Positions 17,979 to 57,275 of a stretch of DNA of 64,000 nucleotides are shown here, one piece after another (positions within the stretch are counted from its first letter, which is position 1; each line of letters opens with the position of its first letter). Source of the DNA: a virus; the IMG/VR virus record IMGVR_UViG_3300037963_004147, positions 1-64,000 of that record; one strand, given 5' to 3'. The position numbers were made by a program, and so were the translations under genes. The notes under the pieces are model-generated. The model searched no databases. It was not told where the DNA came from and worked only from the letters and a program-made list of their open reading frames with translations.

Positions 17979-19196
17979 ATGAATAATAAAGAAATTAGAG
18001 AAAAAGTGAAAGAATCTTTTAGCTGGAAGAAAAATTCAGCAATATGTGCTAAAAGGGTTGGCATTTCACTTTCAAAATATCTTAGGATTAAACAAGAACT
18101 TAAGACAGAATCAAAAAATTTAAAAAGAGCAAAACAAGGTAGAACTGAAAGCTTTAATTTAGAAAAAGGTGAAGGTACTATATCAACTCTAGCTGCAAAT
18201 GAACCTAAAAATCCAAAGGAGATAATTAAACTTTTAAAGATAGATACATCCAAATGGAAGTTATCTCAATACTGGAATAAACAAATGGGAGATCATTGGA
18301 GAGTATCTGCTCTTGTTTCAAAACTTAAAGAATCTGAACAAAGTCATATTGAAGAATTATTAAAAAAATGGAAACCTAAAAAACACAATATACCAAATTT
18401 GTCTAGACCAAAAGGTTATTCTTTATCACCAGATAGGGATCAAGTTTGTGGTATTATGTCTTTACAAGATATCCATTTTGGAAAAGAAGGTAATGAAACT
18501 ATAGATAAAGACTTTGAAGATACAGTAATGGACCTTATAAAAAGAGGAACAGCTTCACATAATATTGAAAACTTATATTTTGTAGTTGGAGGTGATTTAA
18601 TTAATATGGATACCTTTTCAGGTACAACTACTAGCGGTACACCATTAGATAACTGTTCAACAGCTACAGAAGCATATATACAAGCGTTTGACGCAATGCA
18701 TTGGGCTATCCAACTTATTATGCAGCATGTAGGTCATTTAACTGTGGTGTATATACCGGGTAATCATGATAGATTATCATCATTTCATTTAGTACATGCT
18801 TTATCTAAATCAATATCTGATCATCCTAATATAACATGGGATATTGAATATGCAGAAAGAAAGGTTCATGTATGGCATGATAACTTTAATGCTTTTGAAC
18901 ACGGAGATGCTACAAGCAAAAATACAGCTGTTGTGTATGCAACAGAGTTTGCTAATGAGTGGGGTTCTACAACAAATAGAACATTATTCACAGGGCATTT
19001 TCATCAAAATAAAAAAATAGAATATATAACAACTAGTGAGACTGCAGGTTTTATTCATAAAACTTTACCCAGTTTATCTAAAACAGATTATTACCATTAT
19101 CATAAAAAGTATGTAGGTAATAGAAGATCAGGTAAGTTAGAATTGCAATCACCTACTAAAGGTAATATTTGTGAACTAACTTATTTGGCAGATTAA
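17979..19196 (+). CDS. Calcineurin-like metallophosphoesterase with N-terminal HTH-like segment
   Basis: All five signature blocks of two-metal phosphoesterases are present in order: D164-I-H166 (SLQDIHFG), G-G-D206 (VVGGDLIN), G-N262-H263-D264 (IPGNHDR), H308-G-D (FEHGD) and G-H340-F-H342 (FTGHFHQ). The active site is therefore complete, and an enzyme acting on nucleic acid or another phosphodiester is likely; SbcD/Mre11-type nucleases share this layout. The first roughly 45 residues (EIREKVKESFSWKKNSAICAKRVGISLSKYL) are basic and resemble a helix-turn-helix. The gene is bounded by terminators on both sides, giving a single-gene unit inside the virion module. The substrate is unknown. Confidence 0.85.
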   Translation: MNNKEIREKVKESFSWKKNSAICAKRVGISLSKYLRIKQELKTESKNLKRAKQGRTESFNLEKGEGTISTLAANEPKNPKEIIKLLKIDTSKWKLSQYWNKQMGDHWRVSALVSKLKESEQSHIEELLKKWKPKKHNIPNLSRPKGYSLSPDRDQVCGIMSLQDIHFGKEGNETIDKDFEDTVMDLIKRGTASHNIENLYFVVGGDLINMDTFSGTTTSGTPLDNCSTATEAYIQAFDAMHWAIQLIMQHVGHLTVVYIPGNHDRLSSFHLVHALSKSISDHPNITWDIEYAERKVHVWHDNFNAFEHGDATSKNTAVVYATEFANEWGSTTNRTLFTGHFHQNKKIEYITTSETAGFIHKTLPSLSKTDYYHYHKKYVGNRRSGKLELQSPTKGNICELTYLAD

Positions 19197-19812: not shown

Positions 19813-20484
19813 ATGGCAACAATAGGTGAAGTTATATCAAGAGTAAGAGGTCAGGTAAAGGCAGAAGTACAAGATGCTTTTGTTACTGATAGATACGTAT
19901 ATAGCTTAATAGTGAAATTTGCTCAAGTACTAATGAGAAGGCAAGATTTTGCAAATAAGCTAATGAAATTTAATGCTGTATGGAAAACTTTACCATATAT
20001 TGAATTAATTGAAGTTGATAAAGTAGAGGCACATTGTTCTGGTATTCAAAGCGGATGTACTATTAAAAGAAGTAAAAATAGACTTCCTGAAATGATAGAA
20101 GGTTATTGGGGTCCGTTAATTAGAACAGTTAGCTCATTAGATGGATCTATTGAAGTTCAACCAACGCAACCTGGTACTTATACTTCAATGACTAAAACAA
20201 CATCATTTAAATATAATAAGAAAAAATACTTTTGGTATTTAGATGGATATATTTATTTGCCAAATGTTGATTGGGATGCAATTAAATTAGAAGGTGTATT
20301 TGATGATGAAATAGGATTTTGGTTGTGTGAAAAAGATGAACAGTGTATTCCAAGATATAAACAAGAAGTTTATATACCGGAAGCATTGTTTGCTGAAATA
20401 GAAACACAAGTGGTACAAGCAATGATGCTTACAGTGCAAGTTCCACCAGAAGATGGAGATAATAAAGTAAATGTTAATAGATAA
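19813..20484 (+). CDS. Putative head-tail ring (connector) protein 2
   Basis: The N-terminal helices (TIGEVISRVRGQVKAEVQD, then FVTDRYVYSLIVKFAQVLMRRQ) resemble head-completion/connector proteins that form helical-bundle rings under the portal. Residues 60-175 are beta-rich (YIELIEVDKVEAHCSG ... KKYFWYLDGYIYLPN), followed by a C-terminal helix (EIETQVVQAMMLTVQV). This helix-beta-helix order is shared with the proteins at 10175 and 21596, suggesting three members of a stacked ring set. It lies two bases after its upstream neighbour and four before the first small basic gene. Assignment is by architecture and context. Confidence 0.62.
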   Translation: MATIGEVISRVRGQVKAEVQDAFVTDRYVYSLIVKFAQVLMRRQDFANKLMKFNAVWKTLPYIELIEVDKVEAHCSGIQSGCTIKRSKNRLPEMIEGYWGPLIRTVSSLDGSIEVQPTQPGTYTSMTKTTSFKYNKKKYFWYLDGYIYLPNVDWDAIKLEGVFDDEIGFWLCEKDEQCIPRYKQEVYIPEALFAEIETQVVQAMMLTVQVPPEDGDNKVNVNR

Positions 20485-20487
20485 GAT

Positions 20488-20763
20488 ATGAAAGCAGTTT
20501 ATAACAATAGGGGTGTTAAAGTTCCTGGAATGATAATGAAAGAAGGCGGCTCATTTCCAGATTTATCCGGTGATGGTAAAGTTACCAAGAAAGATATTTT
20601 AATGGGTAGAGGTGTCATTAAGAAAAAGAAAGGTGGATCAACAAAGAAATTAGATCGTTGTGCTAGAATAGCTAAAAGGAAATATAAAGTTTGGCCTTCA
20701 GCTTATGCATCTGGTGCTGCTGTTAAGTGCCGTAAAGGAAAAATTTGGAAAGGACAAAGCTAA
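20488..20763 (+). CDS. Small basic tagged protein with EF-hand-like loop (91 aa)
   Basis: The product starts MKAVYNNRGVKVPGM, a peptide that recurs in the next gene but one and at the C-terminus of the next gene. It continues with KEGGSFP and then DLSGDGKVTKKD (residues 25-36), which meets the EF-hand loop pattern at positions 1, 3, 5, 6, 8 and 12. KKKKGGSTKK follows, then a basic module (CARIAKRKYKVWPSAYASGA, then KCRKGKIW) that I have seen as a repeated small module in marine phage proteins. Strong positive charge suggests binding to DNA or to an acidic partner. It sits between ring-type genes, so it is probably a virion or internal head component; function unknown. Confidence 0.7.
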   Translation: MKAVYNNRGVKVPGMIMKEGGSFPDLSGDGKVTKKDILMGRGVIKKKKGGSTKKLDRCARIAKRKYKVWPSAYASGAAVKCRKGKIWKGQS

Positions 20764-21020
20764 TGGCTAAAGAAAGTTTACATAAATGGTTTAGCAGAAA
20801 TAAAGGTAAAGGTTGGATAGATTGTAAAACCGGCAAGCCTTGTGGTAGACAAAAGGGAGAAAAAAGAAAAGGTTATCCTGCTTGTAGACCAACTAAAGCA
20901 CAATGTACATCTGCAGCTAGAAAGAAGACTAGTTCAAAAAGAATTAGTTGGAAAAAAGAATATGGCGGAGAGCCGGTATATAATAATATGGGAACAAGAG
21001 TTCCTGGAATGTATAAATAA
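20763..21020 (+). CDS. Small basic tagged protein (85 aa)
   Basis: I choose the ATG at 20763, which overlaps the upstream stop as TAATG and gives MAKESLHKWFSRNKGKGW; a start at 20745 inside the upstream gene would add six residues and is less likely. The protein is lysine- and arginine-rich with four or five cysteines (DCKTGKPCGRQKGEKRKGYP, then ACRPTKAQC), a possible metal knuckle. It ends in YGGEPVYNNMGTRVPGMYK, so here the YNN...VPGM tag is C-terminal whereas its neighbours carry it at the N-terminus. Translation is probably coupled to the gene before. A DNA-compacting or packaged peptide role is a guess. Confidence 0.7.
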   Translation: MAKESLHKWFSRNKGKGWIDCKTGKPCGRQKGEKRKGYPACRPTKAQCTSAARKKTSSKRISWKKEYGGEPVYNNMGTRVPGMYK

Positions 21021-21034
21021 TAAAAGTAAAAATC

Positions 21035-21268
21035 ATGCCAGCAAAAAAAATAAAAGCAGCAAAGAAAAAAGGTACAATGCCTAAAAGTGTTACAACCTAT
21101 AAAAAAGGAGGATCAACAACAAAATCTGTAAAAGCCCCAGCAGGCTTTCATTGGATGAAAGATGGATCTGGATTTAAATTAATGAAACATTCAGGTAAAT
21201 TTAAAGCACATCCTGGAGGATCTCTTACTGCAAAATTTAAAATACAAAAAAGACATAAAAAGAAATAA
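21035..21268 (+). CDS. Very basic small protein with GG motifs (77 aa)
   Basis: Nearly a third of the residues are lysine or arginine, at both ends (MPAKKIKAAKKKGTMPK and KFKIQKRHKKK). A YKKGGSTTKS segment mirrors KKKKGGSTKK of the protein at 20488. The middle (APAGFHWMKDGSGFKLMKHS, residues about 31-50) looks like a small folded hairpin. It lacks the YNN...VPGM tag but shares the GG neighbourhood and the operon. The lysine-rich, histone-like composition suggests nucleic-acid binding, perhaps inside the head. Function not known. Confidence 0.65.
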   Translation: MPAKKIKAAKKKGTMPKSVTTYKKGGSTTKSVKAPAGFHWMKDGSGFKLMKHSGKFKAHPGGSLTAKFKIQKRHKKK

Positions 21269-21269
21269 A

Positions 21270-21584
21270 ATGAATCCAATTTATAATAATGTAGGAGTAA
21301 AAGTTCCCGGTATGTATGACCTTGATAAAATGAAAAAAGGTGGTATGGCTGGTTGTAGTATAAAGAATGGATGTAAAAGTAAAGCTGGAGGTTTAACAGC
21401 TAAAGGGCGTAGAATGATTAACCGTAAAACAGGATCTAAACTTAAAGCACCACAGCCAGGTGGGGGTCCACGTAAAAGATCTTTTTGTGCTAGAAACTTA
21501 GGTCAAATTAAAAAATTTAATATTGATTGTAGAAAAACTCCAAAGAAAAGAGCTTGTCTTGCAAGAAAACGTTGGAAATGTTAA
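21270..21584 (+). CDS. Small basic tagged protein with Cys motifs (104 aa)
   Basis: It begins MNPIYNNVGVKVPGMYD, a clear relative of the tags in the two genes at 20488 and 20763, followed by MKKGGMAGCS. The rest is strongly basic: a GGLTAKGRRMINRKTGSKLK segment (residues about 46-65), then RKRSFCARNLGQIKKFN and a CLARKRWKC end. This GGLTA...CAR...W-x-C arrangement resembles a small-protein family seen in marine phages and large DNA viruses, of unknown role. The start lies one base after the preceding stop. Its cysteines could bind zinc. It probably acts with the other three small proteins. Confidence 0.7.
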   Translation: MNPIYNNVGVKVPGMYDLDKMKKGGMAGCSIKNGCKSKAGGLTAKGRRMINRKTGSKLKAPQPGGGPRKRSFCARNLGQIKKFNIDCRKTPKKRACLARKRWKC

Positions 21585-21595
21585 AAATTTGAATA

Positions 21596-22480
21596 ATGAG
21601 TATATCACATAAATATAGAACTTTTGACCAATTACTTGAAGATGTATCAGTTGATTTTTCAAACTATGCACTTGAAGGGATGATTGAACCTCAGCAATTA
21701 ATTAAAGTTGCTACAAGAGTTAACTATGATTTAGGATTAAGAATTCATAGAACTAAAGAGATAATTTTAGAAGTAGAGCATGGTAAAGCAAAGTTGCCTT
21801 ATGACTTTGCATATTTAAATTATGCTTTTTTATGTGGTGACTATACTATTGCTGATAGACCACCTTCAGGAACTCATATAGAAACTTTTAATGATGTACC
21901 ATATGTACCAGCTCCAGGAGAGTCTGGACCTTGTGAAGATCCTGAATGTAGAGATGTTTGTGTTATAAAAACTTGTGATGATAAAAATGAGTATCAATTA
22001 ATACAAAGAGTTAATCCATCAAGTTATAGAACTTTTACAGCATTTTTACCATTAAGAATTGCTAATGTAAATGATCAAACATGTGATTGCCCAAACTTAA
22101 GTGTGCAGTCTACAGATATAGCTGAAATTAAAGATGGCTTTATAATGACAAGTTTTACAAAAGGTAAAGTATATATAAGCTATCAAGGTGCAATGGAAGA
22201 TCATAATGGAAATCTTTTGGTTTTAGATCATCCATATTGCAATGAATATTATGAGTATGCTTTAAAACAAAGAATTTTAGAGAATATGGTTTTTGCTGGG
22301 GAAAATGTTTCTAATCAATTAGGTTTAATTGAAGGGCGTTTAAGAGCTTCAAGAAATAATGCTCTTGGATTTATTAATACACCTGATTTTGCAGAGATGC
22401 GGAAAGTTTGGACAATGAATAGACGAGCACAATATCATAATTACTATAATATGTTTAAAAGCTATCCTGTAGCTGGTTAA
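21596..22480 (+). CDS. Putative head-tail ring (connector) protein 3
   Basis: The N-terminus (TFDQLLEDVSVDFSNYALEG, then MIEPQQLIKVATRVNYDLGL) and the sequence after it (EVEHGKAKLPYDFAYLNYAF) match a pattern I associate with a ring protein adjoining the muzzle gene in Bacteroidota podoviruses. The middle is Cys- and Pro-containing and beta-rich; the C-terminal 90 residues are helical, with YYEYALKQRILENMVFAGEN. It sits directly before the muzzle-like gene, with nine bases between, the expected order for tail-assembly partners. Cysteines at residues 102-130 (CEDPECRDVCVIKTC) are numerous for a connector. Confidence 0.68.
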   Translation: MSISHKYRTFDQLLEDVSVDFSNYALEGMIEPQQLIKVATRVNYDLGLRIHRTKEIILEVEHGKAKLPYDFAYLNYAFLCGDYTIADRPPSGTHIETFNDVPYVPAPGESGPCEDPECRDVCVIKTCDDKNEYQLIQRVNPSSYRTFTAFLPLRIANVNDQTCDCPNLSVQSTDIAEIKDGFIMTSFTKGKVYISYQGAMEDHNGNLLVLDHPYCNEYYEYALKQRILENMVFAGENVSNQLGLIEGRLRASRNNALGFINTPDFAEMRKVWTMNRRAQYHNYYNMFKSYPVAG

Positions 22481-22489
22481 ATTTGAGCA

Positions 22490-25400
22490 ATGGCAAAACA
22501 AAATAAAAGTACTAAGTATAACCTTCAAGGTTCTTCTATTGAAACTAATAGCTTTGCTAAAGGAATGTCTAAAGACATTTATAAAGGTGTAGTTCCAAAA
22601 ACAATGTGGGGTCATGCACGAAATGCTGCAAATAATTCTGTAGATGGAGATATAGGAATTATTGGAAATGAACCTGCTAATTTAGAATGTGGAAGAGTAC
22701 CTTATACTGTAATTGGTACAATTCATAAACAAGGTGATCACTGGATTATTTATTCTACAGATGATATTAGTTCTGAAATAGGTTTATTTGATGACAGCAA
22801 ATGTGAATATAAAACTTTAGTAAATGATCCCTGTCTATCTTTTAATAGGCAATTTTTAATAACGGGTGCAGCAAAAGAAAATTATGATTGTACTTGGCAA
22901 GTATATTGGGATGATGGTTTAAATCCATCTAGAACTTTAAATTTAGATGATATTCCTTATATACAAGTTGTTACATCACCTCCAAATGATCCTTGTGTTA
23001 TTTATGAAGACACTGATAAATTAGATTGTGAAAAAATAAGATTAGCTCCTTTATTAGATATACCTTGTATTGATTTATCAAAATCAACTGATGGAGGTCA
23101 GTTAAGAAATGGATCTTATCAAGCATATATTGCTTATACTTTAAATGATCAAAAAGTAACTGATTATATTGGAGTATCTCAAATTCAAAGTTTATTTGCA
23201 CATGAGAGTAATGATGGTGGTCTAGATGTTAAAGTTAGCAATTTAGATAAAGAATTTGAAGAATATGAATTAGTTATATTATCAGATAATCAAGGTCAAA
23301 AGGTTGCAAAAAAAATTGGAACATATAGTACTGAGCAAACAGATATTAATATAGATTTTATTGATCCTGCTTTAGTAAGTGTTCCGCTTAATTTATTATT
23401 TCAAAGAAGTCCTGCTTATGAGAAATCTGAATCAATGTATGTGGTTAATGATTATCTTATAAGACAAGGACCTACAGAACAGTTTGATTTTAACTATCAG
23501 CCATTAGCTAATGAAATTAAAACAAGATGGGTTGTGGCAGAATACAATGCTGATTATTATTACAAAGGTGGTAATAAAACACAATTCATGCGTGATGAGC
23601 AATATGCTTTTTTTATAAGATGGATTTATAATACAGGAGAAAGATCTTCCTCTTATCATATTCCTGGTAGAGATCCTGATCCATCTTCACAAAATCAATA
23701 TTCACAAAATATAACACCTAACCCTGGAGATTTAGGACAAAATTCAGGAGTTAATGTAATTTCAAATTCTGGACTTGAATATAACTTTCAAGTTTATAAC
23801 ACAGCTAGTGTAACACAGGCAGGTTTAAATATACCAACTGGTGATGGAGGTACTGTGATTGCTAAAGGTAAAATGGGTTACTGGCAATCAACTGAAAAGT
23901 ATCCTGCAACTAAACCAGAAATATGGGCTGATTTATGTGGTAAACATATTAGACATCATAAAATGCCTACTGAAGAATTACATGAAAGTTTACATCTTTG
24001 TGCAAATGATGGAAGTACTATTAGACTTTTAGGTGTTGAGTTTGATAATATTGCTAGACCTGTTGATAACGATGGTAATGTAATTACTAATATTATAGGT
24101 TATGAAATATTAAGAGGATCAAGAGAAGGGGCTAAATCAATTCTTGCTAAGGGTATTTATAGAAATATGAGAGCTTACAAAGTACCTGAAGGAGATCAAG
24201 GTATGTTAGGTGAAAGTATTAATGAAACTATTTTATATCCAAACTTTCCATATAATTCTTTACATGGAGATGTATACCATTGGTTTGATTCAGCAGCTTT
24301 AGGTATTTCAGGTGATGGTAATATAGGTGGGGCATTAACGCAAGCATTTATTGCAGATCCATTTCCAAGAACAGATGGATGTGATGACTTTATGGATAGT
24401 ATAACAGATTATCCTCCTTTAAGACTTACAAAGAGAGATTTCTTTACATTCCACTCTCCAGAACTAATGTTTAAAAGACCATTTTTAAATGCTTATGAAA
24501 CTAGAATATATGGAGCATATGGTGGAATTAGTGAGGGTCACTTTATAAAATCAGAACTACATCCTCAAAATAAATTATTAAGAAACTCAGGTGCTATTAT
24601 AGGAGGTATCTTAGGTATTGGCTATGCAATAGGTCAAATGCAAGGTAAGAAAGAAAGAAATTATACAAAAGCATCAACTCAAACTATTCCATTTGATCCT
24701 TATTACATTCAAGCTGGTGCTTCTAATGGTAGCAATATGCCTGTTCCTCCTGTCAGTCTTTTTCCAGTATCTCCTGTTTGGGTTGGTACAACAGCTACAA
24801 TGACTGCTAATAACCCTGGTACGACTGCTGCAAATCAAATTATGGATACAGTTGGTGGAGTTGGAGAATTAATTACAGGAGGTGCCCTTTCTAATGCTTT
24901 TATCAATACTTTAGGTAGTATTGAAGCAAATTTAAATTTACAACCTGGTTTCTCAGGAGGTCAAGATAACTATACGTATAAAAAAGAGGATGATGCTGCA
25001 CAACTACCTGCTCCTATGCAATTAGTAATGGGTGCTATCTATGCAAGAGAAAAAATGGCAGATGGTGCACAAATTGTTATAGACTCATTATATAATATGG
25101 TATCTGCAGAAGATTTTGCTTATAAGCATAATTCTCATGGATTTTATTCAGATTATTTTAGAGGTAATGTTGGAGATGTGTTTAGAGTCAGAAATACAGC
25201 TTCAAATTATTTAGGTAGTTCATTTCAAATATTTGGTGAAAATCATTTAGGTAATCCATCTCATAAGATTAATAATTTATTTAGACCTGATACTGTAGCT
25301 ATACAAACTCTTAGTCCATCTCAAGGAGGAGCTTATTTACCTTATCCTTCTTCTATGGGTGCACCTATTGATAAATCTCTATATGTTATAGGTGGTGATG

Positions 25401-32396: not shown

Positions 32397-35300
32397 ATGA
32401 AGTCAAAAAAAGTAAATAAAAAAAGTTTATACCAAGAAGGTGGTCCAATGGAAGGAATGCCTCCATCAGTTGAAGATATGCCTGCAGAAGAACAAGCTAT
32501 AAATTTACAGGAAGAAATTACAGCTATGTTAGAACAAGGTGTATCTATGCCTGATATAATTAAAGGTTTAGCAGAAAGAGGATTTTCAGATGAAGAGATT
32601 ATAGAAGTTTTAGTATCTACAGGTGTACCTGAAGAGGAAGTGGTGACTGTAATGAATCAGATGAGTGAAGGATCTCAAGAAGAGATGCCTCCTGCTGAAG
32701 GTGAAGAACAAATGGTAGAAGGTCCTCCTCCACCACAGGCTATGCCACCACAGGCTATGCCACCTGAAATGGCAATGGGTATGCCGCAACCAATGATGGA
32801 AGATGGTGGTGAAGATCCTGTACCTGGAACTAGAGATTTTACTACACATTTTACAAATGCTTTTTCTCCAAACGTATTGAGAGAACAGCCCGTGTATGAT
32901 CCATCTACAGATCCTAATCTTACCAAAACATACATGACAGATAAAGATGGCAACATCACTGGACAAACTTATGTACGTGCTGGAAAAACTTATAATACTA
33001 GAAAGTTAAATAAACTGTTTCAAAAGGGAAAGATTCCTGGTGAGTCTTTTTATGATGGCCAATACCGTGAAGGTGGCGAAGGTGGAAATAATCCTTATGG
33101 GGCAGATGTCTATAAAGATATAGAATTAATATACCCGGATGGATCAATCCAGACACAAAGCTTAAATGAAAAAATGTTTAAGTCTGGTTATATTGATTAT
33201 AAAAAACCTGTTAAGAAAAATTTTTCAGATGGTACTTCTAAAACTCAATATAGATATAATCCAAAAGGAATAGATGGTCTTCCAAGAGTAAACTATAATT
33301 ATACTGGTTCTGTACAATATGGTGGAGAAGAATTACCTGAAGCTAGAACAGGTATGGGTCTTGATAGAGATCAGCAAGGTTTAGCAGGAAAAATGCTAAA
33401 ATATAGTGATGGTAGTTTAAATCAATTCTTTTCAGATAGAGATGGTTATAGAGCAAACCCATTAGCAGATTATACTCCTGTACAACTTGATGAAGGAACT
33501 CCAGGTGAAGGTCTAATGAAGATGATTCAATTTGGTCAAAATTTATTTAGTGGTGATATAGATCCTGAAACCGGTTTTATGAAAGGTTCTTTTAGAGATA
33601 GAAAGAGAAAAAACAAAGCACAAAAAGATGCACTTGCAAGTACATATGACTATAATGTAAAGTTTGATCCTAACGATCCAAATAAACCTGAAGATTACCA
33701 TACAAGTTATAAAAGTTTATATGAAGCATCTCAAGGAGAGATGCCATTAAGAACTAAAGATCAATTCAAAGAAGATGTGCAAAAATATAGCCGTATTGAT
33801 TTTGATCCAGAAAGTCAAAGATATAATACTTTTTTCTCTGATAGAGAAATAGACTTTGAAAATGTTCCTTCAAAATATAGAGAAGATTTGCAAGATAGAT
33901 ATAATAAATCTGAAGAACTTTCAAAATTTGTAGGTAGAGTGGGATCACTTACAGATGAAGATAAAACAAAGATGACTAACATTGGTAAAGATTTAGTAGA
34001 TTTTCAATCAAACCAAGATATGCCAGAAGATACTAAATTTGGTGTAGATGAATCAGGCAATGCTGTTTATTATAATCCTAATTTAGTTGGTGAAACAGGA
34101 ACTCAAAATTTTGTTGATAATACTGCAGGTTATATGTCAGGTAATAAATTTTTTGATTTTGGTGGCTTAGATGGAAAGAAGGCTGGAGGATCATTTGATA
34201 ATGAAGGATTTAGAGCACTTCCAGAAAAGGTTCAGATGAAAATTATGAAAGCTCAAAATGGTAACGGTGAAGAAAGAGGATTTGTAGAAGAAGATTTAAA
34301 TATACCTCAACCTAAGATGGATGCTTACATGAATTATTTAGATCAAAAAGCTGCACATGAGAAAGAGCTACAAGAAGTTCAAGCTATTAGGCAAAATATT
34401 GGGCAAAGAGCTACAGATCTTGGAACCGCAAATGCTTCACCATCAGAGGTTGGTTTATCAAGTAGTCTTGTTCGTAGTGTAGACGAATTAGGGTTTGGAT
34501 GTAATACATACTCTTGTCAAATAGCTAGAGATGCAGGTGTTACAATTCCAGATGGTGCCCCACCTGTTACAATTAATAAAAGAACTTATGAAGCAGGAGA
34601 TAAATTGCCAATGATACCAGGTAATGCTCAATTTAATTCTTACGCTACAAAATATTTAGGTTTTGAACTTTTACCTAAAGGTACTTTACCAACTGAACCT
34701 GGAGACTTAGGTAGAGGTCATATATATAATCAAGGTCCTGGTGGCCCAAGTAGTGGTTCACAACATAGTTACATTTTAGGAACTGATGGTAAATTTTATA
34801 ATAATCCAGGTAATGTTACAAGAGGATATATGGAGTATGATCATACACCTACAGAACAGTATTATACAACTGATTCTGGAGTAATGAGATATGTTAGAAA
34901 TTTACCAGCTACAGAAAAAGCAATGAATGAAGCTTTGGCTGCTTATGAAGCATTACCAGAAGATCAACTACGGAGACTTAAAACTTTACAACCTGAACTT
35001 TTAGCTGGAGCTGCAGATACTCAACCTGGTGCTTTAGCACAAATGGAATATAAAGATGTTCAATTACCGGAAGTTTCTAAAAGAGAAATGAGAAGGTTAA
35101 AAAAGGAAAACCCAGAATTGTATAGACTTTATGAGAATCCAGAATTATATAATGAGCAACAAAAAGCTCAAGCTTTAATTCAATATGATCCAAGATATAG
35201 ACAAATGATAGATGCAAGTATAACTGCATCTAGACAATATGGTGGGGGAGATATTCAAATGAATCCTTATCAAGAATTATTAATGAATCTACAACAAAGA

Positions 35301-38790: not shown

Positions 38791-41700
38791 ATGGCAACGT
38801 ATGTACCAGGAGTAGGAAGTTATTTACCAGATTTTAAGCCGTTTACACCGGACTATAAGTTTTTATCTAATGTATTAGATACAAAGACTAATAGATATAA
38901 TACAAACTATAAAGCAGTAAATGATTTATATAGTAAAGTTGTATATGGTGATTTATCAAGAGGTGATACTCAAGCAATGAGAGATCAGTATGCTGAGAAC
39001 TTAGGACCTAAACTTCAACAAATTTCAGGAATGGATTTATCTGTTATGCAAAATGCTCAAGCAGCTCAATCAATATTTAAACCATTTTTTGAAGATGATC
39101 TTATTGTAAAGGATTTAGTTACAACTAAGCATTACAAAAATGAAATGGGTTATGCTAATATGTTACAAAATTCACCAGACCGTGAACAAAGAGAAATGTA
39201 TTGGACTACTGGAATACAGAAGATGAAATATCAAATGGAAGACTTTATTAATGCATCTCAAGATGAAGCATTAAATATGGCAGTTCCTAAATATACTCCT
39301 GATGCTGATTTATATGAGATGGCTATGAAGTATCTTAAAGAATCAGGTTTAGAAGCAGAAATTGATATGCCAACTCCAGATGGTATGTGGATTGTTAAAA
39401 AGAAGAATGGTGATATTATTACTAGACAAGCACTTCAAATGGTTCAAAAAGCACTTAAGGATGACCCAAGAGTTGTTAATGCATATCATGCACAATCTTT
39501 TGTTACAGCAAGAAGTTTTGCAGAAAGTGGAATGCAAGCCGGCAAGTTTACAACTATTGATGAAGGGCAGAGAGCTTGGGCTACTGAACAAATTGGTAGA
39601 ATGGAAGAACTAATAGCTGATAGAAATAAGAAGCTTGAAGATAGACAAATGAAAGAAAAAAATATTGTTGTTTCATGGCAGAACTATGAAGCTCAATATG
39701 GTATTACGGATGGTTCAAAAGCTCAACAAGAACAAGCAGAAGCAGCATCTAATTTTGAAGCAACCACTGAAGCCTTAGAAGGAAATAGAAATGTATTATC
39801 TGATAATAAAGGAATAAGTGATGAGTCTAATACAAATCAACTATTAAATAGAGCTTATGGATTGTTAATGAATTATAATATGGAAAGTGATCTTCAAGCC
39901 GCAGCTATAGGATATAGTAATATTGGTAAAAAGATTGGTTTAGAAGTTAATCCATATGGTAAAATGAAAGCTCAATATCAATATGATGTAGCTTTAGAAA
40001 ATCTTAAGAATAGAAATAAATTAATGCAAATAGCTGCTAGGAAAAAAGCAGATGAAGAGGATGAAAAGGATGAAAATGATTTAAAAAATAAGTTAGCTTT
40101 AAAAATTACCAACAATGAAATGAACACTGAAACAAGTGGTGCAAAAGATGAAGATGGTGAATTTAATCCAAACTATAATCATGAGGAAGATCAAAATGAA
40201 AAGTTAGTTGGTTATAATGAAAAGGTAACTAATCAAGAAATTGATTGGGCTTTAAAAATGTATCAACATTTAGAGGCTGATAAAAAAACAGGTGTAGTTG
40301 AGATAGGAGGAATGAAGGGTAATCTTCAAGAATTATCTGCAAGACTTAAGGAGCAATATACAGAAGGAGATAAGAAAGGTCAGTACATTCATCAAGAAGC
40401 AATAGATAATTTATTTGGTGATATGGAATCTAAATTTATTAATTTAAAAGCTGATGCTAGTTCATTTCCAGATAAATCAGGACCTGTCTTTTTAAGACAA
40501 AATAATGGTGAAGACTATCTTAAAGCTTTAAGTCAGTTATCAGAACTGAAAGCTACAAGACATGCTTTGGATTATGTAAACCAAGGTCTTACAAATGCTA
40601 AAGCTAACAACTTAGAAACAGCTTTAAAATTAGAGGGTGTTTTTGAAGAAATTGATGATGGTGAAGGTTATTCAACATTATTTAAAAATGGCATGCCAAC
40701 TATGTATACAAGAGATGCAAAGGGCAATGCTACCCAAATGACTGAAGATGAATATGTCAAAGCATTTAATGATTGGGCAAGAACAAAAGGTAAGAATATA
40801 GATATTAGAAATACACCATTTGATGAAACTGGAGTTTTGAGTTCTGATAATGAAGAGTGGCAACAAGATGATGATGGTAACTATGCAGGTGTAGGTTGGG
40901 GTCAAGAAGGAACAAAATATATTTATCCTCAATACAATGGTGGAAGTACAGTAGTAATTAAGTATGACGATGATACACCATTTACTTTTAATGAAGCTAA
41001 ATCAAGTGAGTATGCAAGACGTTCATATCAAAAATTAAAAGAAGTACAGAATGCAACTATGAATGGAGGTTTAAAGAGTATAGCTACTGAAGCTGACTTT
41101 AAAGTCTATGATGTCGCTCAAGCAATGAGAGGTATTAGAAATATGACACAAGGAGATATAAATAAAAATCAAGTTTATAGTGTACAATTTAATGCTAAAG
41201 ATTTAACTGAACCGGCTGTAGAGATGTATAGTGCTTTACTTGATCAAGAAAACGAAACACCGTCACAAGAGTTTTATGTTTATGCAAATAAATATCAGCA
41301 TAATGAAATACAAGAGGATGACTTTGTAACAACAGATGAAGATATTGAAATTTTAACAGAAGGTGGTCAAGGTGTAAGTGATGAACAAAGATCTAATGGA
41401 AAATTACTTTTGAGAGATTTAAAGATGATGATTGCTGAAAATATGAGAGATAAATCAGGTAATGCTTCTAAAGATGTTGCTAATTTTGAAATAAAATATT
41501 TTAATACATGGACAGCTGATTCTGATAATGTTACTAGAGCAGATGGCGATTATGCAGGTTATGTAATAAAACCAAGTCTAGACTTTTTAGGAAGATATAT
41601 AGGTAAAGGTAAATTATTAGAAAAAGCTAAAATTGAAGATTACATGAATATTAATATTGTATTTAAAAAAGAAAAAGATATTAATCCATTAAGATATGGT

Positions 41701-54000: not shown

Positions 54001-57000
54001 AAACAGGTGAGAATTCTGCAATATCATATGAACCTGCAGATATAGAAGTATTAACTGATCTTTGGGATGAAATACAAGAAGAAGTTCCTGAGTTAGCTGA
54101 ATTAGTTAATGAAGATGGTTTAGATGCAAATAACCTTCTTGGTAAATGGAGAGGTTACACGAATAACCATGAAGGTGCAAGATCTATTGGTTCAGCTGTA
54201 CTACCTAATTTATATTTAAGTTTATTACAAGAATATAATACTAAGTTTAAAAGTTTAAAAGTAGCAGGTGAAGAAACAGGTCCTAGATTTGTATTTAATG
54301 GTATAGTATATGATAAATTTACAAATAAGGTAGAGGATGGAATAGATTGGTCAAGAGAAGTTAACGCAGATGGTAGTCCTGGTAGAAGAAAACAATATAT
54401 TATCTCTGCATTAATTACAGCAATGACTGATAATGCTAAAGAAAGATTAGCAGCTAAATTAGGATTAACTAGAGATTCATTAGGTGGAGTTACAATGTTA
54501 ACTGCAATGGGTGTTCCAATTAGAACAAGTATATTATTATTTAATAATCCAAATGTTAAAGAAGCATATTATCAAAAATCATTAGATGATTCATTTGATT
54601 TACAATCATACTTTAGAAAGAAAAGTCAACAGTATAAAAGAATTGCAAATAGCATAGGTGGTGTTGATACTAATTTTGAATTAACTGATGATGCATTATT
54701 AGATGCTATACGTGATCCTGGACCAACATGGGGTAGCAATATAGAGTTAGGTATTAAACTAAATGAAGCTCAAGAAGCTGGGCAAGATTTTATAACTGCA
54801 AAACAGTTAGTAACTCAAATGAAAGTTCTTGAAACAATGTATAAGCCGGCTAGATCAAAGAAAAAATCTTCTAAAGCTACTGGTATAATTCCAATATCTT
54901 CAGAGTTTTTAAGTTTAGGTACATTAGTGTCTTTATCAAAAGGTATAGGAGGAAGTTTATCAGAAGCTGCTAGAATTGATAAGGCTATAAAAGATTTAAA
55001 ACTTGATTTAACTGATGAAGCATATTCAAAACTTGACTTTAATGAAAAGCCTTATGTAGATGTTAGAAAAATATTTAAAGGTAAAACTCATCAAGCTCAA
55101 ACATTAAAAATGTTTCAAGAGTTTTATAATGAATTATTACCAAATGTTTTTATTTCTCAATCAGAGCAGTTTAAGCAATTGATGGCTGCCATTCAAGCAA
55201 ATGGTAATCCTGCAGCTTTTAGAGATGCTGAAGTTAGAGATATGGTAGAAAGAGATTTGCTTTCATACTTAACTTTAAAGTCTTATATGCATACTACCCA
55301 GCAAGAAAAAGATAATAGTTTTATAGGTCATTTATCTAATGATTTACTATATGGTATTAATGGTAAAACAATTGCAGATATAATTGATGAAGCTAGAGAA
55401 GCATTGGATGGAAAATATAATTATTTCATTCAAGACTTTATAAAACTAGAAAGAGCAACTGATACTGGTAATAAGACTGGTGTTGACATGGCTACTACAA
55501 ATACTTTAACTAGATTAACTGACTCTGAGAAGGTAGACATACAAAATGGATTTAAAGAGTTATACAGTAATCCTGAGACAAGAGATTATGCTGTTTCAAT
55601 TATAAATTACTTAATGGTAAAAGATGGATTGCAACCAACATATAAAACATTATTAGCAGCTGTTGCACCTGCCGCATTAGGTAGATATTTAGATAATATT
55701 AATAATGTTAAAGCAGCATTTGCAAGAGGAAACTCTACATTATTTAAAAGTGTATTTGGCTTAGATAAGTTTGAGTTAGGTCAAGACTTTTTAGATAACT
55801 ACTATAGGTCAGCTAAATCTAGTAGAATAGTACCTTCAGTAGGAGATGACGTTGCAATTCCTGTATTTAATCCTAAATCTAAAGTAAATGTAGCAAAAGG
55901 TAATTTTACTGTAGATGAAGTTGCAAGTAATCCAAATACATTATATGTTATATTTGATAATGAAGCTAATGTAGGAAGTGCTAATAGTAAAGCTGTTAGA
56001 GGAATGGATAATGTAATTTCTATTAACATTAAAAAATCTGATGCAAATATTCCAGAAAACTTTTATGATCAAACAGAAGAGGATACGGTAAAGCAATATC
56101 TTGCAGATAAGGTTAATGAAATATTATCTGAAAGATCTATAAAAGATGATATTGTATTTCAAAGTTCAATTGATAAAGCAACAAGGGATGCACTAAAGAA
56201 AAATAGTGAACCTGTATATAATGAGCTTATATCATTAATGACCAATAATTTTAAGTATAATATTGCAGGTTATAAAACAGAACAAGAAAGAGAAGGAGAA
56301 AAAATAAATAAACAAGCATTAGAATCTCCTATAAGAATTGAAAAGACTGGAGATAGAAACTACTTGTACATTGATCTTTATAAAGGTATTGTTGCTACTC
56401 CTGAAATGCCTAACGCTGTTAATTATAAAGCAGCTCCAAGAAAAATGACAAAAGCAGGTCAAACTAAACTTTTAGAAAATAAAAATCTAATAAGCTCTAG
56501 AGGGTTTAAATTAAAAGGATTTCAAATAGATAATAAATATAATGAAGAAGTTCAACTGCCATTTACTGTTAGACATAAAGGTGTACTATACCAGTTAGTT
56601 AAAAAGACTAGTAGTGAAAAAGCTCCTATTAATACATCATCTGATATTATTTATGATGGTAGCTCTTTTGCACAAGGTAGTAGTGCAGTTTATGTAGAAT
56701 TACCTGCGATGGGATCTGTAGCACAATTTGGACCAGGATTTATATTTGGAGAGCAGAAAAAATATTCTCAAGTTAAAGAACTTATTGAAACCGCAAATGC
56801 ACCAGAAGATGTACCTGCAGATGATTCAACAAATCCAAAAGCAAAAGAACAAAGTGACGATGATTTCTTAAAACAATTTAGTAATAAGGTATCAAGAGAG
56901 TATAATGAAAATACTAAAAAAGTTACTTTTACATCTAAAAATAAATCTGCAAATGAGGTTACTGAATCTGATTATAAAAATGATATAGGAGATCCTAATA

Positions 57001-57275
57001 ATGTAATAGATAGTTCTATTGATATAGGAGGTTCTGTAGATACAGCGGGTGACAGTACATTTATATCTGAAGAGTCTGAAGGAGATGGAATGAATGTATC
57101 TATAGATGAACAAATAGAAAATTTCTGGGATAGTTTAGCAATACCGCAACTAAGAACACTTAAACAAGCAACTGGTATTGATACTGTAGCAGATATGAAA
57201 AAGGAATTTAAGAAACCATTTTATAAAGGAAATATTGATACCTTTATGGAAGTTATAAAATCATGTTTTAGTTAA
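42027..57275 (+). CDS. Giant protein containing virion RNA polymerase (5082 aa)
   Basis: The key motif is GA-D3862-F-D-I-D3866-KLY. DFDID is the metal-binding catalytic signature of crAss-like virion RNA polymerases, as in Cellulophaga phage phi14:2 gp66. In front lie typical companion blocks: a DAQLWMTPKAF block (D3373), VKMSAFML with K3443, and IRIPSQDNHSTISIKLVDMM. The polymerase core is probably about residues 3250-4350. Farther upstream, Y-H2174-E-A-F-H2178 matches the zinc-protease HExxH motif. The N-terminal 600 residues have hydrophobic segments (about 247-290) and an EGLQEVYQEAV helix, possibly for membrane passage. Such a polymerase would be packaged and injected to transcribe early genes. 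This protein is more than twice the roughly 2,200 residues I recall for gp66, so it is probably a fusion or polyprotein. Confidence 0.85.
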   Translation: MSDFEKDVKSNAVNSIAPGVPQDMFVFESISDLETPPDIAEFDPNLDQGYLDMLSAAAPIINQFSPNPTSNMRSPFPGPATDTYNPVAQKVPKASGNESIMNKFRQIGEVAKNLNPENPENKNTTFGKSMNSIKIADPIFSSIRESQFDRYYEHGEFGKLGWHPYADNETYYNENSSWWDNAGRMFGEMGRLAWTGMKANYSSWGSADSMDLNAAVEFEDAMRIGSSTTGGFGGGLNNLLLQSGYTFGIIGTIALEELAMWGATAALAAATPFTAGASGAGAVATGTAATVRTGYNMAKLAKLGRRIADSFDVSRMLRGTRSMMKNMNKADNARGFWNSVRSGGNVLGNFVAPETMAAFKALKSAEKAGDNLTSMAKISKGVGGFYRDLRSLNFALSEGRMEAGSTYMDVLNRSMAQMKENNLAEGLSENLTDSQIAMADARAQEAAFATTSWNAPLIYLSNQLLLGNSMGGFKRTLNQAMRDNIEGVGRRILKTKAAVKTGKDGAKTIAKDVFEDVGESFMNYKYLYKSVKAGGIKGGATMAAGAGLRFFAANVGEGLQEVYQEAVAKGVSDYYTALATDPMAGGSELFQTSALAGLSEQFSGQGLHTFMSGFLMGGVVAGPQKLVFQGMPMLYQKTFNKKEYAEYKANKEKLVADLVNTYNSAWNSQADDVQNMFDSTKLNFLNQKQEASEMVAAQLEDSMFNFIDAKDNAKFQQLNTIFKTGRQDFYREQLEDYLQLTDEELAEAFPQEASRAKSGKLRSTIQDQIKKIDEMEVTYEKNLEDFVNPFDPKAFKPGSREQNDEALKHFAFEHARMLYLFTKDGFQRALERSESIFSELESDPVISKMAANDVTVLLNKDTLQQEISQLKAEIPGLGEAGTKRLKKDKEKKLEALEAVADVLYNEEYQTKTGRFDRRRIQKLTPTILNYLKTVARSKDAFVNPELIQETIKKIVDHNHLSNRQKVYDKSIQFLNNPDQFDAIVRRSYEYLKYAHKNQLEMYEKAIRKFINKKEINQFLNQLAKVGVYADMSETLEFAETGNIDSLTVFYSESGMVNKVNDPELFAEIQNLIQTYRQTAQPQVQSDIAESKSSEVKKSKKAQAVQEEVDEILEDAEISGPEAEVYGKAKDESPILEKLLKQKYQEVRAFAIQKGVKKIPSFNDYIKTPAAQSYISAYVALKKMWYQTLTGIEDEGIRMERFKKDQGFLSWLKLQQTNDKVVDVLSVTNTKFNDFIKGMAEDVGSTPEQDKKNKVAGLEGPSQIVEVKSTDDQGNPVTFYQILDKFGEPVAYELTEEAGLPVGLSFTDLGKAKQAKAKLDASIPDTAEMEIRNSKGEVVEKLVFGQEVIEKSTGNKYIVVSTPSKLSKGGKLYLFPASLAGTVTQLQARRNKSEKINPADFAGRFKASSYSLTDVSLPANVSKLNIDEATKIQYQQNGRFTKDKEWEGNSKKRFQLILQNLSEEQFNKLEVVVKRNIDGGKVTQEKFTFPEKAPNRLIKRTKQSYSIALRIPADIMKTLEPKILDADLALPENNILGYIPNTDVQLYDTNGARINPLNITTDQIGNLFQISGKTKENAAKEIRRNFAIQQSIVNDINKKLGKDESGTLTLEDIGGVNFVATAGQMQFLPTGVTNKIENLQYNTVDGTMVILDNGNNRFVTDMTGSVEDQIDFEDKVKADMQAQNTNIFENAKKAGRYVMIVKQPNGMFSYFPIKTDVLEKSTLNDIANEIIERSALSQKDNTKKIEGATTPVINDMEFNSEFNQELNNKFYIASTPGYSFDINVNANGAVELRVFDRDNKQVVKYIQNDKAAIEAWGKVEDKTQLLNELFENADKSFKEQYSKVTSKTPAIRKQVLKDVANLKLNLGSIRKSFPVTASASEIAETSVTTVGSQVRKDSKLRVNINGIDVSQIETAGVFTPSEVFTDANGNPIPKGGPLTTSSESMNNIEIEGAELDAMSKEDFEALKADNFKGLTEAQITAIAIKLSDPSSLTAREGQVMSNVVSSGIVQMKHLSLKKNNPASENTTPGETGSAQMDRSALMKKAASLRSKIEALEDAIADRGLSTTAEEEAIANDPEIKKLTKERNDILDKLSANKIVAENLSEEDVNNIDEFLAWAESALPGFITTQDINTLGNNTKAGGKRVGAFVMDMHNIAGGMNIAGTIYADQTKYAYHEAFHAVFRMLLTEEQQQKFYTIARKEVRAKLRAEGKSFKEEIEKLKNSDLTRYANYSQKALENLYYEEYMADEFQKFKTDPKSTKTDSFIKSFFNKLMEWLRSIFKKYNANELKFLFEEVDAGKFKTADVAVNSFTEEAGMGVTIQANKILRTKEISLDSGKKEYEYLDSKTSRAIISAISARVINEQLKSDNPEFDIVESVKESLNLYKNLYNNDTELYRSLNSSDKRKLRAVRKAFNEYGKDIVDGVLEELALYDIKLETAEDENGMFEEAFGLRTTSDWDKDASMTGGFRSLPSFLRKYIGTTVFVDEVNGKPKTDMFGNLHLPVSDIGTQKQENVLTTVDFGVAYSGFLKASSGQTDPVKVMQQLYLFGKNNPQTQAVVRRLMDDVGLVWEGQLEEGIIPDNLKDPSLFQAIIKGFSNFKVDYLFIHRRTSDNQVFTYNAANRDDAHTQIEKWSEAYRQLRVLQANNPDKLNASLKDLRKLLGYLDPNKPQNKISNGKLDVLSNNIAKSLKEATGISLSPQYIEFSIASNILEPTANQKSIINANSDVKAIEYEDVMYLRNGLEEGSNIMSESDEGVYNRLRQMALGNAPFDENIGASVFKNPNGDLVYAHQLPTFHLKQIAKLNDVKGAGEVIKQLKEKDYLEQNSLVNSPWFKQLSAEGRLKVTRIAGTKASKNIRQDDAGGIEEGYDKNETGTTYGELSKADIINSLVSSYIANVNAVSGKVNGVFAEGEERALAPSLLRVIEASSTGDMVSLPVMKTVEKGEGGSIQLTDEALTAYINNIQAEANRIASEHKGKTYDNVKEEGDLIAGYNADKSGQKFDPDGRAFKFHNTGNLLTAIKLKSLDKSGIPQFLTKTEVSDRLRNNNEGSQKMWMASDTAVEKSGHNQRGTIVQVILQGAESVEYTNKKGKKGTKLEANKGDDGTLHNVKYWGKINFKEQSAEDRQTIIQALGNAIVPQSFESETHTNKVVIGDKVFKVESKGLAQWLRGTGSQHFYQVVEEAGEVNENLKDLKGQLEEAIKENPDASFDEHLKAIGESRESLKNYVSNRLISEFRQFDKEIKDSKIELPSFLKTGITRPKDGTTDAGNFAATNRKLNLIKDKDYNLMQIFFNDWLNTTALNDVILGDQAISLKDAVDQVKRAKMQNAAYYSAKSDIVAPDLGINEKVSNIALFPTTEPTAPSRHTKAKIDQADAQLWMTPKAFKHMWFGFGKLTPSQSALFDKVMKGEKVNVEDIYGKNGAAKKGEMLNSKKLVYGDGQTFVKMSAFMLSKEYTSYQNEKGDWVARPDKVKLHNMREKMEAYERKHKTIAVSAPLSALKMMKKNVNDIDSMIDFSGELTEKNAMNLDAEYMGLQVLNPSNKLEIVDPTQIRTIVTGEQEFPDDLTVTLPDGNEMSVLQLRSAYNQAVSDRQTQKYLDKRNLIFDIDYAMDELHKGMAENKISANLLSYLQYAQTSLSSSQSSSELLEFFSFDPDTGQQNYNLDNPITKQKFEQLFLSYFSKSVFSEKIPGTSAALVSDYGVNVYRRVLSVDENGYPDQQEIIRSEDFIQNYSVTDLVQGKEGPLDFSNDDQFGRLKTEVEASKGKGVIIMDRLRPDMKEYINGKYTGIKYSESIMPAHHREVMELVGDTGPIPEAVAKMFGIRIPSQDNHSTISIKLVDMMPAYYGSSIISPRELVEVSGADFDIDKLYLQMKEWFVDDNGNFKEYSNSFEDYVRYINSKVGTKGTSYAEALAKSKFNLDNSYTEAQKKEAIDAGLTVRSLNALSELGLPISKKEYNAYVKKNERAPFAAGYNNEILDYKTALMSHEGVTSKTGENSAISYEPADIEVLTDLWDEIQEEVPELAELVNEDGLDANNLLGKWRGYTNNHEGARSIGSAVLPNLYLSLLQEYNTKFKSLKVAGEETGPRFVFNGIVYDKFTNKVEDGIDWSREVNADGSPGRRKQYIISALITAMTDNAKERLAAKLGLTRDSLGGVTMLTAMGVPIRTSILLFNNPNVKEAYYQKSLDDSFDLQSYFRKKSQQYKRIANSIGGVDTNFELTDDALLDAIRDPGPTWGSNIELGIKLNEAQEAGQDFITAKQLVTQMKVLETMYKPARSKKKSSKATGIIPISSEFLSLGTLVSLSKGIGGSLSEAARIDKAIKDLKLDLTDEAYSKLDFNEKPYVDVRKIFKGKTHQAQTLKMFQEFYNELLPNVFISQSEQFKQLMAAIQANGNPAAFRDAEVRDMVERDLLSYLTLKSYMHTTQQEKDNSFIGHLSNDLLYGINGKTIADIIDEAREALDGKYNYFIQDFIKLERATDTGNKTGVDMATTNTLTRLTDSEKVDIQNGFKELYSNPETRDYAVSIINYLMVKDGLQPTYKTLLAAVAPAALGRYLDNINNVKAAFARGNSTLFKSVFGLDKFELGQDFLDNYYRSAKSSRIVPSVGDDVAIPVFNPKSKVNVAKGNFTVDEVASNPNTLYVIFDNEANVGSANSKAVRGMDNVISINIKKSDANIPENFYDQTEEDTVKQYLADKVNEILSERSIKDDIVFQSSIDKATRDALKKNSEPVYNELISLMTNNFKYNIAGYKTEQEREGEKINKQALESPIRIEKTGDRNYLYIDLYKGIVATPEMPNAVNYKAAPRKMTKAGQTKLLENKNLISSRGFKLKGFQIDNKYNEEVQLPFTVRHKGVLYQLVKKTSSEKAPINTSSDIIYDGSSFAQGSSAVYVELPAMGSVAQFGPGFIFGEQKKYSQVKELIETANAPEDVPADDSTNPKAKEQSDDDFLKQFSNKVSREYNENTKKVTFTSKNKSANEVTESDYKNDIGDPNNVIDSSIDIGGSVDTAGDSTFISEESEGDGMNVSIDEQIENFWDSLAIPQLRTLKQATGIDTVADMKKEFKKPFYKGNIDTFMEVIKSCFS

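Follow-up and report, generated by a model that had tools for sequence, protein, structure and literature searches.

We analyzed a 64,000-nt stretch of viral DNA (the window) taken from a 114,909-base virus record. The source phage is a marine, environmental member of Crassvirales, identified by its major capsid protein, which matches Crass_capsid (Pfam PF23898, E = 6e-30), together with the tail ring proteins R1 and R2. Long records of its marine crAss-like family have 56–84 proteins in common with the source record, and the closest isolates are the Cellulophaga phages phi17:2 and phi4:1 (R2 identity 28%). The gap between R2 and R1 is filled by four consecutive + strand ORFs, placed head to tail, all with basic bodies. 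A six-frame scan found an 11-residue peptide, YN[NS]xG[VMT][KR]VPGM (tag A), on three of the four; as had been noticed at the outset, it begins two proteins (20488 and 21270) and ends a third (20763). The features of the site are:

19813..20484, + strand: tail ring protein R2 (CrAss_Ring_2; Pfam PF25702, E = 1.2e-16), upstream flank of the site
20488-20763, + strand: small basic protein 1, 91 aa, K+R/D+E 25/5; in order, N-terminal tag A, GG hinge, EF-hand-like stretch, C-terminal CARx(5)Y-VWPSAYASG basic body
20500..20532, + strand: tag A copy 1, YNNRGVKVPGM, aa 5-15 of protein 1
20763-21020, + strand: small basic protein 2, 85 aa, K+R/D+E 23/5, its ATG overlapping the preceding stop; LHKWFSRNKGKGW...CRPTKAQC body with tag A at the C-terminus
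20964..20969, + strand: GG joining the body of protein 2 to its C-terminal tag
20979..21011, + strand: tag A copy 2, YNNMGTRVPGM, aa 73-83 of 85, two residues before the stop; predicted beta-hairpin (E71-73/E79-84)
21035-21268, + strand: small basic protein 3, 77 aa, K+R/D+E 23/1, tag absent; APAGFHWMKDG...LMKHSGKFK body with a YKKGGST stretch at the N-terminus
21270-21584, + strand: small basic protein 4, 104 aa, K+R/D+E 29/3; N-terminal tag A, KKGG, DUF6321 body
21282..21314, + strand: tag A copy 3, YNNVGVKVPGM, aa 5-15 of protein 4; predicted strands E3-5 and E11-16
21339..21344, + strand: GG joining the N-terminal tag to the DUF6321 body
21375..21575, + strand: DUF6321 domain (Pfam PF19846, E = 1.3e-14)
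21596..22480, + strand: tail ring protein R1 (CrAss_Ring_1; Pfam PF24228, E = 3e-9), downstream flank

Protein 4 is a DUF6321 protein by Pfam (PF19846, 55 bits against a cut-off of 28.5), and AlphaFold2 predicted helices at residues 44-54, 67-82, and 94-102 of its body. Protein 1 matches phrog_727 (E = 1.3e-8). The stretch that separates its tag from its basic body, PDLSGDGKVTKKDIL, is EF-hand or dockerin-like, the Pfam dockerin match (E = 0.078) being under the cut-off. The tail gene block also holds a metallophosphatase/exonuclease-like gene (17979-19196, phrog_704, E = 7e-45).

An insertion site for small basic proteins

We surveyed the site by tblastn in the best 80 relatives by R2, of which 77 had both ring genes. 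R2 and R1 lie at most 15 bases apart in 68 of these 77, and the remaining nine carry an insert of 288–2,235 bp in the gap. The R2-R1 junction (20484-21596 in the window) is a hotspot for inserted cassettes of small basic proteins. A cassette like that of the window, with tags in the same two orientations, was found at five loci (L081, L088, L084, L166, and L168; L084 ends before R1), and at four others (L109, L133, L136, and L142) the site is filled by other small basic proteins from which the tag is absent. One of these, the tag-negative relative L133, has a close homologue of protein 3 at the same site. Cellulophaga phage phi17:2 has a single 163-aa ORF in the gap. Gene sets vary among inserts (L109, L133-L136, L138, and L142), and some add nonbasic genes without known function.

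Sequence, placement, and spread of tag A

Tag A exceeds its chance level by a wide margin: by composition, 1.8e-4 copies are expected in the 36,452 ORF residues of the genome and 3.5e-6 within the four small proteins, against three seen. The strict tag has no further copy in the 114.9 kb record (six-frame scan). A DNA-pattern search of IMG/VR confined it to contigs of the source family, except for two chance-like hits (L172 and L174); a stricter pattern was absent from 84,980 bacterial and archaeal genomes, and annotated phage records gave chance-level matches only. A profile search of ~12,000 ORFs returned ~30 distinct tags, none of them on a large virion protein. At least 10 unrelated small basic proteins of the source family bear tag A or a degenerate form of it, and those compared with Pfam and PHROGs gave no family match beyond the four bodies. 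The original prediction had staked itself on recurrence of the tag in related phages, and there the tag does recur. No description of tag A was found in the literature searched, which did not extend to preprints and most subscription journals, and the tag is apparently undescribed so far.

The placement of the tag is not random. None of the 15 strict or near-strict tags is more than 13 aa from a terminus, a pattern with a joint probability of 2e-8 if tags were placed randomly. In all 14 strict cases GG stands between tag and body, after N-terminal tags and before C-terminal ones; GG also precedes tag B, a second, C-terminal tag described below. In degenerate tags such as RYGGKKVPGM, GG falls inside the tag. 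Three of the four small proteins contain KKGG (KKKGGS, YKKGGS, and MKKGGM), as first noted, and the second protein has EYGGEP. The further suggestion that GG motifs recur in the giant proteins as part of the same system did not hold, because these motifs were not enriched over shuffles in the muzzle and cargo proteins (z = -2.1 to +2.4). Their flanks showed no strong preference beyond a weak [YM]xxGG (Y at -3, P = 0.03, uncorrected), and GG counts within the four small proteins gave no excess over chance. The nonrandom feature is the position of GG relative to the tag, not the number of GG motifs.

Inside large cargo proteins, a search for the strict tag found no match. One large cargo protein of a relative (G001, 114656-118045, - strand) starts with RYQTGGVEPGMYDPD, which resembles a degenerate tag A. 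The window protein at 32397, in the same relative place, has LYQEGGPMEGM after 11 residues.

A recombination remnant or mobile DNA repeat would also produce scattered copies with no function at the protein level, and the R2-R1 junction, with its inserts of 288–2,235 bp in nine of 77 relatives, fits that explanation. We compared 22 distinct tags and obtained pS = 0.63 and pN = 0.18, pN being an underestimate, since a pattern was used to pick the tags; for pairs of tags within one genome the values were 0.60 and 0.16. Tags of one genome that differ at pS 0.60 are therefore not recent DNA copies, and near-saturated synonymous sites together with kept residues point to selection on the peptide instead of a copied DNA repeat. 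These values largely refute the remnant or repeat, against which the terminal placement and the order of GG also speak, and we regard it as highly improbable. Tag A is a genuine modular tag.

The idea that the tag spread separately from the proteins bearing it is strongly supported, since the same bodies are seen with either tag or with none, and many unrelated bodies bear tag A. The same kinds of bodies are found at other genome positions in five relatives (G001, G013, G015, G018, and G019) and two fragments (G006 and G010); some of them have no tag, others have tag A, and others have tag B at the C-terminus (for example, GGSVQGCGCPYGMQIGPNNVL). The general pattern of tag B is GG[SQA]V...GPN[NGS][VIL]L. 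The KWF-type body ends in three ways (tag A, tag B, or bare) and DUF6321 starts in three (tag A, bare, or the T4 targeting sequence). G013 and G019 have the body of protein 2 without a tag, and G001 has a related body with tag B. Tag A is optional for this class of small basic proteins, given the bare bodies and the untagged cassettes found at the R2-R1 site.

Tag B comes in a long form, GG[SQA]V...CGCP[YF]GMxxGPN[NSGR][VIL]L, and as the shorter GGAVGPNGIL. It occurs on many unrelated small proteins of the source family (L170, at about 2078-2377 in - strand coordinates, L165, L037, and L177-L199), and on one body it replaces tag A. A small nuclease-like gene (VVDGDTIDA...GINAPESR) adjoins the cassette in four relatives (G001, 39646-40026; G018, 24301-24663; G019, 105412-105774; G015, 56607-57035).

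The body family of protein 1 and the CYxKV body were present in all eight tag-positive long records and in none of the seven tag-negative ones, a co-occurrence that is not an independent statistic, because these are related genomes, retrieved in part by way of the tag or the bodies. Beyond the bodies, no protein family was present in all tag-positive and absent from all tag-negative genomes. Any partner of the tag would therefore be a conserved virion or host protein.

DUF6321 bodies and the T4 targeting sequence

In phage T4, a targeting sequence of roughly 10 residues sends proteins into the head, where they are then trimmed by gp21, and this sequence carries foreign proteins into the head as well (PMC9958956). 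The T4 internal proteins IPII and IPIII start with MKTYQEFIAEA, and DUF6321 proteins of T4-like phages start with MKTFKQYITEA (S-SZBM1), MKSFKQLRIDINE (Syn1), and MKNFAQYIEE (P-TIM40). We defined the T4-type signal as an N-terminal M[KI][TSDN][FY]x[EQDK][FY] and counted it in 80 IMG/VR loci. It was present in 12 of 32 N-terminally extended DUF6321 ORFs, compared with 8 of the 789 other ORFs at these loci (Fisher P = 1.3e-13), and Glu directly precedes the body in 30 of the 32. Since the DUF6321 body bears the T4 targeting signal in T4-like phages, the bodies are, judging from sequence, probably internal virion proteins. At T4-like loci (L306-L385), the T4-type signal is also borne by a separate MKS[FY]x[EQ]FLSES[VI][NT]I family, a further candidate for an internal head protein.

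Annotation of T4-like phages offers further observations. The homologous T4-GC119 has the annotation "structural protein" in S-P4; the note "similar to S-SM1 protein", which we read as proteome-based, is attached to virion genes and to GC119 and is absent from terminases. T4-like cyanophages have DUF6321, CYxKV, and KWF modules joined in long proteins, and CYxKV and KWF modules are also present in Flavobacterium phage immuto. Sequence and fold searches of the DUF6321 body against PDB gave nothing significant, and a viral library returned other DUF6321 proteins. The bodies are probably nucleic-acid-binding proteins of the kind that T4-like phages carry in their heads.

The T4-type signal was found in none of 1,807 ORFs of the source crAss family, and in place of an [LI]xE cleavage site GG separates strict tags from bodies. 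This GG might itself be a cleavage site for a phage or host protease, the tag being removed once loading is done, as happens to T4 internal proteins. Such a removable tag would account for GG lying on the correct side in both orientations in 14 of 14 strict cases and for GG before tag B, and the related bodies of T4-like phages are preceded by sites of the prohead-protease type. However, the residues flanking GG vary, so that GG could be a plain flexible hinge, and degenerate tags (RYGGKKVPGM) have GG within the tag. No protease was matched by Pfam among the head-module, cargo, and giant proteins, nor by PHROGs, many of these proteins being unassigned, and no protease family tracks the tag. 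We consider removal of the tag unlikely.

A proposed docking peptide and known systems

AlphaFold2 modeled the tag as a beta-hairpin about an NNxG turn in both the N-terminal copy (21270) and the C-terminal copy (20763), and in the model of 20763 the hairpin is the top-scored part. With pLDDT of about 57–81, the prediction is of moderate confidence.

We propose that tag A is a docking peptide movable between proteins, a hairpin of ~16 residues ([EN]P[VI]YN[NS]xG[VM][KR]VPGM[YF]) that a Gly-Gly hinge would join to small basic proteins at one end or the other. The hairpin would bind a conserved virion or assembly protein and in this way bring the basic proteins into the assembling capsid or tail, much as the T4 targeting sequence does for T4 internal proteins. 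Unlike that sequence, it would work from either terminus and need no [LI]xE cleavage motif. We infer DNA binding by the bodies, binding of the tag to a virion protein, and packaging. By analogy with T4, we give about an even chance to tag A loading small basic proteins into the virion. Against it stand the untagged basic cassettes that fill this site in other relatives and the finding that no partner family tracks the tag. Somewhat short of even is the wider proposal that this marine crassvirus family owns a loading system, made of tag A and the C-terminal tag B, which could be put on any small basic protein at either of its ends to dock it to the virion, and which would have arisen independently of the T4 signal and replaced it on the same bodies. 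The original prediction of a targeting system for small basic peptides is supported only by analogy, through the T4 signal on DUF6321 in T4-like phages, and neither a partner nor a protease was found among the families and proteins scanned.

The hairpins might instead bind each other. If tags of different small proteins paired by strand exchange, basic proteins would be bundled with no separate receptor; predicted hairpins could pair edge to edge, no receptor family tracks the tag, and tag-positive genomes hold at least two tags of type A or B. Two of them (G001 and G015), however, have a single strict tag A apiece, and we take self-association to be decidedly unlikely. Tag A could also act in the cell, where it would bind a phage or host target (polymerase, nucleoid, or replication site) once the basic proteins have been made or injected. 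Scanning of families across genomes found no virion partner, and the tagged set is specific to the phage lineage and lies in part outside the structural block. T4 internal proteins such as IPI act in the host once injected (PMC9958956, PMC9391042), which would suit this explanation. On the other hand, the window copies sit between two tail ring genes, and the same bodies carry a head-targeting signal in T4-like phages, so action in the cell seems to us unlikely.

How crassviruses choose their cargo is an open question, and tag A, if confirmed as a docking peptide, would give a direct handle on it in an abundant phage order. It would then be a short, end-independent address tag for placing proteins in phage particles. 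Short signals known to load proteins into phage particles are few outside T4 and its relatives. Hundreds of marine phages carry DUF6321, a domain of unknown function, and the link between DUF6321-type modules and the T4 signal gives it a testable role, that of an internal head protein. The same DUF6321 body comes with an established loading signal in T4-like phages and with tag A in the source family.

The crassvirus cargo proteins are one of the nearest comparisons. Phage crAss001 holds cargo proteins in capsid and tail (PMC10172136), and these virion-stored proteins (gp45, gp46, gp47, gp49, and gp50) belong to the same order as the source phage; their likely equivalents in the window lie at 29086-63069, downstream of the muzzle gene. 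They differ in being large and without tag A, and the parts of the crAss001 account consulted mention no short common targeting tag (PMC10172136). The DUF6321 (PF19846) proteins of cyanophages and T4-like marine phages (T4-GC119, phrog_727, and phrog_10346) include protein 4 by Pfam, and proteins 1 and 2 are similar to other modules of the multi-module members. Unlike in those proteins, the modules are separate genes in the source family, and tag A, tag B, or no tag replaces the T4-type signal. An encapsulin cargo-loading peptide is a short terminal peptide that docks unrelated cargo onto a shell protein; likened by description only, it shares general features with tag A as proposed here. The T4 capsid-targeting sequence (IPI, IPII, and IPIII) is, like tag A, a short terminal peptide common to unrelated small proteins, and both are found on the DUF6321 body. 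Tag A has other residues, occurs at either terminus, is predicted to form a hairpin, and lacks the [LI]xE motif, and Pfam matched no prohead protease among the head-module and cargo proteins of the source phage. On present evidence, tag A would be an analog of the T4 capsid-targeting sequence, working like it without being one of its members.
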